DNA of 64,000 nucleotides from Syntrophobacterales bacterium. Its GTDB lineage: Bacteria > Desulfobacterota > Syntrophorhabdia > Syntrophorhabdales > Syntrophorhabdaceae. Below, piece after piece: positions 54,377-58,218 of the stretch (the stretch's first letter is position 1; every line of letters starts with the position of its first letter). The position numbers were made by a program, and so were the translations under genes. Under the pieces are notes generated by a model, which was not told the origin of the DNA, made no database searches, and worked only from the letters and a program-made list of their open reading frames with translations. The stretch is from positions 1 through 64,000 of the forward strand of contig JAISPL010000053.1 in the NCBI GenBank assembly GCA_031274925.1, in the 5' to 3' direction.

Positions 54377-55165
54377 TTAAGTCATATCTTTTATGGCAAG
54401 GCAATCGTAGATTATGCGATCCGCCTGGTAGACCATCTCCCCTCGCTTCACCACGCGCCATCCCCCGTTCTGGTAAATGCCGTTGTTGGCGATCCCTTCA
54501 ATCAGGCCTTGCGCGTTATCCAGGGATACAGTGAGCTCATGATTCTGGGTGAGGACCACGGACTTTGATCCTGGACTTGCAACAAGCGTCACCGGCTCAA
54601 TGACAAACCTTGAAAGGTCTCTGACAGGCGCCGTCTCCACAGTCGCCTTGGTCTGGAGCTGGATCATACGCGCACGGGTATCAGGACCGGCAGCCTCGCT
54701 TGTCGCACTGATAAGGTCAAGGAGAATATCCCTCACGTCGTTCAACTCGGCGGCGGCACAGAGTTTATCCATCTCAGCATATGTCGTAAGAGCTCTCGCG
54801 AGGGTTGAGACCTCTCTCAGGTAGTGGTTCCGCTGGTCGTCGGGCACAAGGAACATGGCGATGATTGAGACGGGAGTTCCGCCGGGGGCGCCGTAGTCGA
54901 TCCCTACGGGACTCCATCCTATGACGCAGATCAGGTCCCCTTCACCTGAGATTCTGGCGTGGGGCACTGCCCATCCCTTGCTTAAGGCCGTATTCACCGT
55001 AGCTTCCCTTGCCGTTACGAGACCAACGACATCGGTGCCGGAACGGACCGATGGTATGGCCTCGATAATGTGGGCAAGAAACTGTAAGGCGTCATCCTTA
55101 TTATTGTCGGGCAACTCAATGAGCCTTCCTTCCTGTAATGCATCCAAAAGGGTATTCATGGTCAA
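54377..55165 (-). CDS. PTS EIIA type-2-like protein with extra C-terminal domain
   Basis: 262 residues. Residues 1-155 form a mannitol/fructose-type EIIA domain: LVTAREATVNTALSKGWAVP then HAR, with the phosphoryl-accepting His near residue 70; IGWSPVGIDYGAPGGTPVSI; and FLVPDDQRNHYLREVSTLAR. Residues 160-262 are a separate beta-rich part (VVLTQNHELTVSLDNAQGLI, GWRVVKRGEMVYQADRIIYD) I cannot name. The start overlaps the mgtA stop (ATGA), so it is translated with the Mg2+ ATPase. There is no sugar permease nearby, so a regulatory role for transport is more likely than sugar uptake. Confidence 0.82.
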   Translation of the reverse strand: MTMNTLLDALQEGRLIELPDNNKDDALQFLAHIIEAIPSVRSGTDVVGLVTAREATVNTALSKGWAVPHARISGEGDLICVIGWSPVGIDYGAPGGTPVSIIAMFLVPDDQRNHYLREVSTLARALTTYAEMDKLCAAAELNDVRDILLDLISATSEAAGPDTRARMIQLQTKATVETAPVRDLSRFVIEPVTLVASPGSKSVVLTQNHELTVSLDNAQGLIEGIANNGIYQNGGWRVVKRGEMVYQADRIIYDCLAIKDMT

Positions 55166-57831
55166 TCACCTCCATAACGTTTGAAGAACCAGTTCTTCAC
55201 GCCGTGTGTCAATACAGCGTACATGATAAGAAAAACGGTGATCCAGAGCCAGTAGGAGAGAGGGAGTGGCGCCATGCCCAGGGTCGATGCGAATGGCGAG
55301 TATGGCAGCCAGACACCGATAGCCATAATGGCGAGCGTTGTGAGGGTAAGATGGACCGAGGCGCGGCTCCCGATAAAGGGGATCTTCCTGGTCCTGATGA
55401 TATGGACAATGAGGGTCTGGGTAAGGAGGGATTCCACGAACCATCCCGTCTGAAAGAGCCTCTCCAGCATTTCCTTGTTCTGAGGAGTCGTGGCCGTATT
55501 GACGAAAGCGTTGCAGTGAAAAAAGAACCACATAAGCGCGAAGGTGGCATAGTCGAAGATGGAGCTTACGGGTCCGATGAAAGCCATGAAACGCTTGACA
55601 TTGCCGATGTTCCATTTTAGGGGTTTGGCTATGAGTTCGTCATCGACCTTGTCCATGGGAATACCGGTTTGCGAAAAATCATAGAGCAGGTTGTTCGTCA
55701 GGACCTGTATGGGCTGCATCGGCAGAAACGGCAGCAAATAGCTCGCGCCTAAGACGCTGAACATGTTTCCGAAGTTAGAACTCGCACCCATCCTGATATA
55801 TTTGACGATATTCGCAAAGACCTTCCGTCCCTCAATAATACCTTCTTCGAGAATGAGGAGGTTCTTTTCGAGAAGCACGATATCCGCCGCCTCTTTTGCT
55901 ACGTCGACCGCTGAATCGACCGATATGCCGACATCGGCCGCCTTGAGGGCGGGGGCGTCGTTTATGCCGTCACCCATGAACCCGACGACATGACCTTTTT
56001 GCCGCAGCGTCCTGACAATTTCTTCTTTCTGCGCCGGCGTGAGCTTGACAAACACATCCTCTTCCATTACCGCCCGGGAAAACTCCTCGGCGGAAAAACG
56101 GGAAAGGTCTCCGCCCGTGACGATCCGATCGGTGGTAAGACCTACATCCCGACAGATCTTTCTCGTGACCAGGCCGTTGTCACCGGTCAGCACCTTGACT
56201 TTCACCCCTGCTCCCTTCAGCAGCTTCAGGGCCTCAGTGGCGGAATCCTTGGGAGGGTCGAGGAAGGCGATATACCCCAAGAGAACAAGATCCGTTTCAT
56301 CAGCCACCGTAAATGAGGTCTTATCCCTTGAGAATTCCCGGTAGCCGATGGCGAGGACACGATAACCATCTTCGTTGAAATCCTCTACCGCCTCAAAAAG
56401 GTCTTCCCGGATTACCCCGATGAGCGGATAGATCTCCTCGCCGATCTGGTAATGGCTGGAACAGGCGTATATCTCCTCAACCGCGCCTTTGCATATGAGG
56501 ACATGGCTTCCTTCATAGTCGACCACCACCGACATACGGCGGCGCTGAAAATCGAAGGGAAGCTCATCGACGAGACGGTTCTGATCCACGTAAAGGTCTG
56601 CTGAATCAAGGACAGCGCGGTCAATGAGACTCTGGAGGCCTGTCTGAAAATAACTGTTCAGATAGGCGTAGTTCAGGACATCCTCGCTTGAGTGGCCGGT
56701 GATGTCCACATGCTGCTCAAGAATAACCCTATCCTGGGTGAGAGTCCCCGTCTTGTCCGTACAGAGAATATCGATGGCCCCGAAGTTTTGGATGGAAGGG
56801 AGGTGTTTCACTATGACCTTCTTCTTCGACATGGTGAGCGCACCTTTGGCGAGGTTCACGGTGACAATCATGGGCAACATTTCTGGCGTAAGTCCCACCG
56901 CTACGGAAAGGCCGAAGAGCAGCGCCTCCATCCAGTTGCCTTTTGTCAGGCCTACGATAAAGAAGACGGCGCTGACCATGACGATCATGAATCGGATCAT
57001 GAGCCATGTGAAGGACTTGACGCCAATATCAAAGCTCGTCTGTTCGGGCCGAATGGCGAGGCGGGCCGAGATGGAGCCAAAGACCGTCTGCATGCCAGTA
57101 TTTATGACCACCCCGCGCCCTGTGCCGCTTGTGACGTTACTTCCCCTGAAACATGCATTGGGCAGTTCCCACGGAATACGGCCTGCCGATACCGGACCTG
57201 GATCGGAGGTCTTCTCCACCGCCATTGATTCTCCGGAAAGGGAAGATTGGTTGACAAAAAAATCTTTCGCCGTAATGAGGCGAAGGTCTGCCGGGACTAT
57301 CGACCCCGCATGAAGGAAGACGATATCTCCGGGGACGATCTCCGAGACCCTGATCTCGATCTCTTTGCCGTCCCTTAGAAGAAGAGTCCGGGGCTGGACC
57401 CTTTTGCCGAGAGCTTCCACCGCAAGGTTTGAGCGCCTGTCGATAACGTAGGCAAGCCCTATGCTAAGCACGACCATGGCGCTTACAATCGCCGTCGACT
57501 TAATCTCTCCGATCAGGGCTGATACAACCGCAATAACCAGAAGCTGAATCACAAGCGGACTCTTGCATCGTTCCAGAATATCACTCCAGAAGCCTCTCCG
57601 CCTGATATGAGCCATTTCGTTGGGACCGTATTCATCAAGGCGTTCTTCGGCCTCTTCAGCGGCAAGGCCTTGAGGGGTGGCGCCAAGGGCGTCAAGAGCT
57701 TCAGATACGGGAAGAGTGCAAAGCTCGAAGAGGCGCCGTTCACTATCCGGCGCCGCAGCCGGACCTCGTCTTGCTCCGGACCAATCGGCTGTATTTCCTG
57801 AATCTCTTTTGAACGAACCTTTCCCCATCAT
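55162..57831 (-). CDS. mgtA: Magnesium-translocating P-type ATPase
   Basis: 889 residues, P3B-type. Seen: LSGESMAVEKTS (TGES-like A-domain), GLTPEMLPMIVTVNLAKGAL (TM4, typical of MgtA/B), DILCTDKTGTLTQD with phosphorylated Asp near 373, KVLTGDNGLVTRKIC, and GFMGDGINDAPALKAADVGI (hinge). The last third holds membrane helices such as FAFIGPVSSIFDYATFALMW and the characteristic FNLLYDFSQ-like NNLLYDFSQTGIPMD. It imports Mg2+ using ATP at the inner membrane. Controlled in known systems at transcription and in the mRNA leader; here the leader is 350 nt and has a candidate leader peptide. Confidence 0.95.
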   Translation of the reverse strand: MMGKGSFKRDSGNTADWSGARRGPAAAPDSERRLFELCTLPVSEALDALGATPQGLAAEEAEERLDEYGPNEMAHIRRRGFWSDILERCKSPLVIQLLVIAVVSALIGEIKSTAIVSAMVVLSIGLAYVIDRRSNLAVEALGKRVQPRTLLLRDGKEIEIRVSEIVPGDIVFLHAGSIVPADLRLITAKDFFVNQSSLSGESMAVEKTSDPGPVSAGRIPWELPNACFRGSNVTSGTGRGVVINTGMQTVFGSISARLAIRPEQTSFDIGVKSFTWLMIRFMIVMVSAVFFIVGLTKGNWMEALLFGLSVAVGLTPEMLPMIVTVNLAKGALTMSKKKVIVKHLPSIQNFGAIDILCTDKTGTLTQDRVILEQHVDITGHSSEDVLNYAYLNSYFQTGLQSLIDRAVLDSADLYVDQNRLVDELPFDFQRRRMSVVVDYEGSHVLICKGAVEEIYACSSHYQIGEEIYPLIGVIREDLFEAVEDFNEDGYRVLAIGYREFSRDKTSFTVADETDLVLLGYIAFLDPPKDSATEALKLLKGAGVKVKVLTGDNGLVTRKICRDVGLTTDRIVTGGDLSRFSAEEFSRAVMEEDVFVKLTPAQKEEIVRTLRQKGHVVGFMGDGINDAPALKAADVGISVDSAVDVAKEAADIVLLEKNLLILEEGIIEGRKVFANIVKYIRMGASSNFGNMFSVLGASYLLPFLPMQPIQVLTNNLLYDFSQTGIPMDKVDDELIAKPLKWNIGNVKRFMAFIGPVSSIFDYATFALMWFFFHCNAFVNTATTPQNKEMLERLFQTGWFVESLLTQTLIVHIIRTRKIPFIGSRASVHLTLTTLAIMAIGVWLPYSPFASTLGMAPLPLSYWLWITVFLIMYAVLTHGVKNWFFKRYGGD

Positions 57832-58034
57832 AAATCACCATTCCGATCAAAAATGAAAGGAACGACGGAGACATACCGGCCAAGAATGGAGGCGTACAAC
57901 TTGAGAAAGCAAAGAGATGACGCTCGCCCAAAGCCTCCCGTACGGCGAACCATGTTTTCTTAAATAGTTTTCTTTAATACTGCCGTTCTTGGTATTTCTG
58001 ATGCAAAAGCGAAGATGAGGAAACTTAAAGTACT

Positions 58035-58116
58035 CTCCTCCAGAACCGCCAGGCCCATGAGGAGAGAAAGAGTCAGAGAACCCGACTCACGACATGAACA
58101 GGAGCGATTCTGCTCC
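58035..58116 (-). promoter_or_regulatory. mgtA leader: three stem-loops after a leader peptide
   Basis: In the minus-strand leader, in order: GGAGC/GCTCC (58101-58116) inside the leader ORF, GAGTC/GACTC (58070-58088) across its stop, and CTCTCCTC/GAGGAGAG (58035-58068). The last has an 18-nt loop and could end transcription or expose a Rho site. M-box (ykoK) signatures were not found. Confidence 0.5.
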
Positions 58117-58152
58117 GCATATTAAGCATTGACCGCCAGGGTCATCTTCCAT
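58087..58152 (-). CDS. Candidate mgtA leader peptide (MEDDP...)
   Basis: A 21-residue ORF, MEDDPGGQCL then ICGAESLLFMS, from ATG 58150-58152 to TGA 58087-58089. AAAGGAG lies 11 nt upstream and a promoter about 30 nt further up. The N-terminus is an acidic run followed by Pro right after Met. In E. coli MgtL a similar Glu-Pro-Asp-Pro start destabilises ribosomes when Mg2+ is low, and this feeds into mgtA expression. The parallel is by position (256 nt before mgtA; about 260 in E. coli) and composition, not sequence homology. Confidence 0.5.
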   Translation of the reverse strand: MEDDPGGQCLICGAESLLFMS

Positions 58153-58189
58153 CGCGTGTACCGCTCCTTTCATAGGTAATAATATATTT

Positions 58190-58218
58190 AATTTAGGTTA
58201 AAAAGTACCCCCTGTCAA
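58190..58218 (-). promoter_or_regulatory. mgtA promoter
   Basis: Minus strand: TTGACA (58213-58218), 17-nt spacer, TAAATT (58190-58195). It would give a leader of about 350 nt ahead of mgtA. Confidence 0.55.

Follow-up and report, generated by a model that had tools for sequence, protein, structure and literature searches.

The mgtA Leader in the Window

The window, which is the whole 64,000-nt stretch of DNA that was analysed, carries the gene mgtA for a Mg2+-translocating P-type ATPase, preceded by a leader whose elements are collected in Table 1. The equivalog model TIGR01524 was used for identification of mgtA. In the first-pass annotation, a promoter, a 21-codon ORF beginning Met-Glu-Asp-Asp-Pro and three hairpins had been described in front of a Mg2+ ATPase gene. 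All of these parts proved correct, and the observation of a leader ORF, promoter and hairpins before mgtA is confirmed. The interpretation that went with them, an independent equivalent of MgtL, is supported in part.

Table 1. Elements of the mgtA leader and the gene behind it, in window coordinates.
Element	Position	Strand	Remark
Sigma-70-type promoter, TTGACA-17-TAAATT	58190..58218	-	Counterpart in 9/9 class A leaders
Shine-Dalgarno sequence, AAAGGAG	58164..58170	-	11 nt 5' of the leader ORF start
Leader ORF, 21 codons, MEDDPGGQCLICGAESLLFMS	58087..58152	-	ATG at 58152, stop at 58087; start kept in nine leaders
Core GACCCTGG, codons Asp4-Pro5-Gly6	58136..58143	-	Near-invariant nucleotides
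Hairpin H1 (GGAGC...GCTCC), within the ORF	58101..58116	-	Alternative pairing of the 3' arm with the Shine-Dalgarno region of the ORF
ORF stretch CAGAATCGC, possible alternative helix	58104..58112	-	Full complement of GCGGTTCTG
Stop-codon hairpin (GAGTC...GACTC), terminator-like by pattern	58070..58088	-	Includes part of the leader ORF stop codon; unique to the leader of the window
GCGGTTCTG in H2, partner of CAGAATCGC in the possible alternative helix	58041..58049	-	
Hairpin H2 (CTCTCCTC...GAGGAGAG), 3' of the stop	58033..58066	-	Conserved, with compensatory changes
mgtA, Mg2+-translocating P-type ATPase	55162..57831	-	TIGR01524, 1071 bits (cut-off 610.75)

A single promoter match, weak taken alone, was obtained in the leader against 0.7 expected in shuffled sequences. 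Regarding the start of the leader ORF, an upstream in-frame ATG at 58173 would prepend MKGAVHA to the peptide; it has no Shine-Dalgarno sequence and no counterpart in most relatives. The spacing between the Shine-Dalgarno sequence and the start codon is long, and translation of the leader ORF may therefore be weak. An additional ORF of 41 codons (MVRRTGGFGRASS...NGDL) was observed at 57828-57953 on the minus strand. Its TGA overlaps the start region of mgtA (TTATGATGG), and it could couple translation into that gene. Rho is encoded in the genome of the window. Neither CorA, MgtE nor NRMT turned up among the genes of this genome (97% complete), so that Mg2+ import may depend mainly on mgtA.

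Folding of the 159-nt leader yielded a structure more stable than all 200 of 200 shuffles (z = -3.0). Within this structure, H1 competes with a longer helix that masks the Shine-Dalgarno site of the leader ORF itself. H2 is located approximately 200 nt from the start of mgtA, is devoid of a U-tract and leaves the ribosome-binding site of mgtA outside. An intrinsic terminator was considered as the output and is disfavoured, as H2 has no U-tract in most relatives. The alternative helix, in which the ORF would pair with H2, was found at the equivalent position in 5 of 9 class A leaders and is partly covarying; most leaders taken singly do not go beyond their shuffles, and equilibrium folding leaves the helix unpopulated, so that it is to be regarded as suggestive only. 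When a ribosome was placed at the stop codon by constrained folding, H2 was opened in four relatives, the stop being located at +78 to +81. The stop of the window ORF (+63) comes earlier than in most relatives, and the same constraint on the window leader did not open H2 and gave no consistent switch.

Class A Leaders before MgtA and NRAMP-Related Proteins

A Shine-Dalgarno sequence followed by the pattern M-[ED]-[ED]-[ED]-P was sought in 46 genomes of the order. Eight of the 18 matches were leader ORFs and the other ten were judged to be chance or coding matches, while a ninth leader was added by the NRAMP survey. Loci L100, L101, L104, L106-L110, L113, L114, L116, L120-L122, L126-L128 and L130 were set aside as chance or coding matches, with no Mg2+ transporter seen downstream. 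The nine peptides, termed class A here, have M-E-[DE]-D-P-[GN]-[GS] in common and are divergent afterwards. Failure of the acidic start to be conserved in relatives had been named beforehand as grounds for refuting the first-pass proposal; what was found is a start kept in nine leaders. TTGAC[AT]-17/18-TAnnnn is located 64-69 nt (once 81 nt) 5' of the ORF in 9/9, and the Shine-Dalgarno spacing is 10-12 nt in 9/9. Conservation of the hairpins had likewise been named as a check, and a covarying H2 is present in seven of the nine (91% of cells paired over the 7 sequences; score reached by 5 of 500 shuffles). A pattern search of the whole phylum did not find class A outside the order and returned only two in-gene matches.

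The genes behind these leaders belong to different families. Three leaders precede MgtA (G000, which is the window, G041 and G045) and five precede NRAMP-related proteins (G001, G006, G043, G012 and G002). The G001 protein has EleNRMT as its best solved relative at 233 bits, the next NRAMP reaching 65; EleNRMT is a Mg2+ transporter of known structure (PMC8806188). Since Mg2+ transport is found only in some NrmT proteins (PMC4072509), the class A-linked NRAMP-related proteins are rated as likely to be specific for Mg2+. In the first NRAMP-related clade, whose members are 82-100% identical, the ORF is present in 4/4, and in the second clade (about 37% identical) it is present in the G002 member only. 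The remaining leader, the second of G045 (L164, G045:C150:2800-9028; MEDDPGGHLRFGWSGRAAIASERPQIP), precedes an OprB-type porin and another outer-membrane-like ORF, with a cation-efflux family gene further on along the same strand. These genes may have a Mg2+ role.

For the close mgtA relatives as a group, 8 of 14 leaders were found to contain a short ORF led by a Shine-Dalgarno sequence and holding at least two acidic residues in codons 2-6. Shuffled leaders gave a mean of 0.34 such ORFs and a maximum of 3 in 500, and the antisense control gave 1 in 14.

Other acidic ORFs were seen in the survey. The mgtA leaders L081, L082 and L083 (family f3) have short acidic ORFs (MGEQDASERVGR.., MGESENSEN..) very near the promoter -10 box, which are possibly leaderless, and a hairpin over the mgtA start. 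Loci L006 and L007, located on MAG contigs named Bacteroidetes, have a 67-69% identical mgtA with the leader ORF MRDSDEPG..., which suggests either transfer of gene and leader between phyla or mis-binning.

Class B Leaders before mgtA and mgtE

In most of the remaining close relatives of mgtA, the leader ORF is longer and reads MxDSDGS...(H)PSEE..DDPGS.., with some variation; a hairpin GGTTCACCTC...GAGGTGAACC comes after it. This type is termed class B. One pattern match revealed a class B leader directly 5' of an MgtE gene (MgtE_N and CBS domains). In the MgtE clade to which L165-L171 belong, a class B-type ORF is present in 7/7, some with weaker acidic starts, and the hairpin in 6/7, where the mgtE ribosome-binding site is contained in its 3' arm and is soon followed by the start codon. 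Those MgtE loci examined that are less closely related to this clade contained neither the class B ORF nor the hairpin. At one mgtA the class B hairpin also lies over the ribosome-binding site. The covariation score of this hairpin was reached by 0/500 shuffles, with two-sided changes at 6 pairs. At L072 (G024:C3), an apparent 5' remnant of mgtE lies between the class B leader and mgtA. This remnant suggests that one transporter was replaced by another behind the same leader, i.e., that mgtA took over the leader from mgtE.

Classes A and B have the core GAYGACCCTGG and the order of ORF, stop and hairpin in common, from which it is inferred that the two may be one family. Taken together, the leader ORF is a conserved element attached to unrelated Mg2+ transporters.

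Constraint on the ORF Start and Alternative Readings

The conservation of the start is present both at the level of the peptide and at that of the nucleotides. In class B, pairwise codon differences in codons 3-6 (DSDG) are 55 synonymous vs 10 non-synonymous, and those in codons 8-20 are 72 synonymous vs 518 non-synonymous. Because synonymous differences predominate in the former and not in the latter, the class B start is, by this comparison of codons, under amino-acid constraint. In class A, codon 3 is GAC, GAT or GAA only, all of them acidic. The codons for Glu2 (GAA), Asp4 (GAC) and Pro5 (CCT) are invariant, which is why part of class A conservation may not concern the peptide. Over both classes, 20 of 22 motif instances use CCT for the proline, vs 26% in the neighbouring transporter genes, a count that overstates independence, the 22 instances being related by descent. 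This near-invariance points to an extra nucleotide-level constraint, either an RNA element or an effect specific to the codon, mixed with the one on the peptide.

The same proline codon is the basis for the alternative that the codon, not the acidic peptide, acts as the sensor, with slow CCU decoding when the Mg2+-dependent TrmD fails to make m1G37-tRNAPro; Mg2+ would in that case, too, be read by the ribosome. TrmD-dependent decoding of CC[C/U] codons has been argued for Salmonella mgtL (PMC6335274), and the CCT count over both leader types would fit. However, class A has only one conserved proline, its acidic residues are conserved to the same degree as that proline, and the fixed GAA and GAC neighbours speak for a general nucleotide constraint. 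Moreover, CCT is followed by G and not by the pyrimidine of a frameshift-prone context, and the descent shared by the instances lowers the weight of their number. Codon-specific sensing is considered unlikely, yet with the proline codon nearly fixed, it and a constraint on the RNA are rivals to be taken seriously.

The near-invariant core, together with the strong fold and the covarying H2, could also reflect a leader RNA that is itself a Mg2+ riboswitch not described before, the ORF being incidental or merely modulating. This is thought to be less likely still. The NRMT leaders of G001 and G012 retain the ORF start although their H2 has diverged, the promoter, Shine-Dalgarno sequence and start codon are conserved along with the ORF, and the start in class B is constrained at the amino-acid level; the leader also has no Rfam match.

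That the leader ORF regulates its transporter in response to a signal other than Mg2+, such as another metal, translation stress or growth rate, appears improbable. The class A copy before the porin and cation-efflux cluster would be in line with it, but transporters known or likely to carry Mg2+ lie behind the other copies (8/9) and the MgtE-linked sister type, and the conserved part is the start type known to make ribosomes Mg2+-sensitive. Finally, short ORFs are common, but a chance ORF in an untranslated leader is highly improbable given a start that is conserved in nine leaders, far above shuffles.

Proposed Mechanism

The occurrence of the same start before a second transporter family, and of a related one before a third, supports a Mg2+-related role. 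For this reason the leader is probably a Mg2+-sensing switch, in which the ribosome serves as the sensor as in MgtL and MgtQ and which works like MgtL; here we infer translation, drop-off, Mg2+ dependence and the identity of the ON fold. In such a switch, the 21-codon ORF would be translated into a leader peptide acting in cis, and the ribosome would thereby link mgtA expression to Mg2+. With Mg2+ plentiful, ribosomes would pass Met-Glu-Asp-Asp-Pro and finish translating the ORF, and the leader RNA would then be held in a state that blocks or impedes mgtA expression. When Mg2+ is low, the acidic-proline start would destabilise the ribosomes and make them drop off, whereupon the leader RNA would refold and mgtA would be expressed. 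This direction of the switch is taken from function, since an importer should be expressed at low Mg2+. Rho-dependent termination would be the likeliest output in the type found in the window, and Rho-dependent attenuation is our best guess for class A because H2 is without a ribosome-binding site and mostly without a U-tract and because Rho is encoded. For class B, the layout is that of MgtQ.

A broader proposal, to which we give about even weight, is that a portable family of ribosome-based Mg2+ sensors, not described before and independent of MgtL, exists outside enterobacteria. Its acidic-proline ORFs would have been recombined before MgtA, MgtE and NRAMP-related NRMT in deltaproteobacterial lineages and joined to two output structures. 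If this is true, the Mg2+-dependent instability of ribosomes at acidic starts would be a general sensor reused by evolution. The starts MEDDPGG, MEEDPGG, MEDDPNG and MxDSDGS...DDPG would constitute a natural mutant series for dissection of the motif, and an acidic leader could serve as a marker for predicting Mg2+ carriage by NRAMP-related and other transporters.

Comparison with Known Magnesium Leaders

To our knowledge, a few enterobacterial leaders are the only bacterial cases in which Mg2+ sensing through the nascent chain has been worked out. In the literature that was searched, with partial coverage, leaders of this kind were not described from bacteria other than enterobacteria. It is known that adjacent or near-adjacent acidic residues and proline in the first 30 codons destabilise ribosomes, and that in MgtL low Mg2+ leads to ribosome drop-off at EPDP, which keeps the Rho-dependent terminator inaccessible and allows transcription of mgtA (PMC11282234). 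As with MgtL of E. coli and Salmonella, the window has, between promoter and mgtA, a short ORF with a ribosome-binding site and an acidic-proline start (codons 2-5); hairpins follow downstream, and Rho is available. Unlike MgtL, the start type of the window leader also precedes NRAMP-related transporters. Comparison by eye of the remainder of the window peptide, GGQCLICGAESLLFMS, with the MgtL sequence gave no similarity beyond the start; the Pro/Arg-rich tail of MgtL is absent from the window peptide. An Rfam scan at gathering and permissive thresholds left the leader unmatched, the permissive one giving only implausible hits far below threshold. Elsewhere in the window, Rfam matched a tmRNA, tRNAs and a fluoride riboswitch (RF01734 at 451-512 on the minus strand, 35.8 bits, cut-off 34). 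Membership of the MgtL family is not claimed, as the likeness is limited to the acidic-proline start and no RNA family matches. An origin independent of MgtL is plausible on the basis of the unshared peptide tail, the lack of an Rfam match, the different downstream architecture and the other transporters.

MgtQ is located in the mgtC-mgtB intergenic region of Salmonella. There, Asp2 and Glu5 destabilise ribosomes, and the mgtB ribosome-binding site is freed from stem-loop 3:4 (PMC8092293). The leaders described here resemble MgtQ in their short ORF, early acidic residues and single proline, and the class B hairpin masks the ribosome-binding site of the transporter as stem-loop 3:4 does on mgtB (PMC8092293). 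They differ in that the leader family is situated at the 5' end of the transcript and not within an operon. A further difference is that H2 of the window leaves the mgtA ribosome-binding site free.

The M-box (ykoK, RF00380) is a Mg2+ riboswitch located 5' of mgtA, mgtE and NRAMP-related Mg2+ transporter genes. RF00380 matched neither the window nor any of the class A and B leaders that were scanned. At two mgtA loci that are more distantly related, L011:2057-2235 and L084:783-961, an M-box was observed, followed by an acidic ORF (METDTQEPPG and MEIDTQEPPG, respectively). The mgtA behind them is 62% identical, and these loci may have a pair of Mg2+ devices working one after the other. With the M-box, the acidic leader family has in common that it is spread over mgtA, mgtE and NRAMP-related genes.
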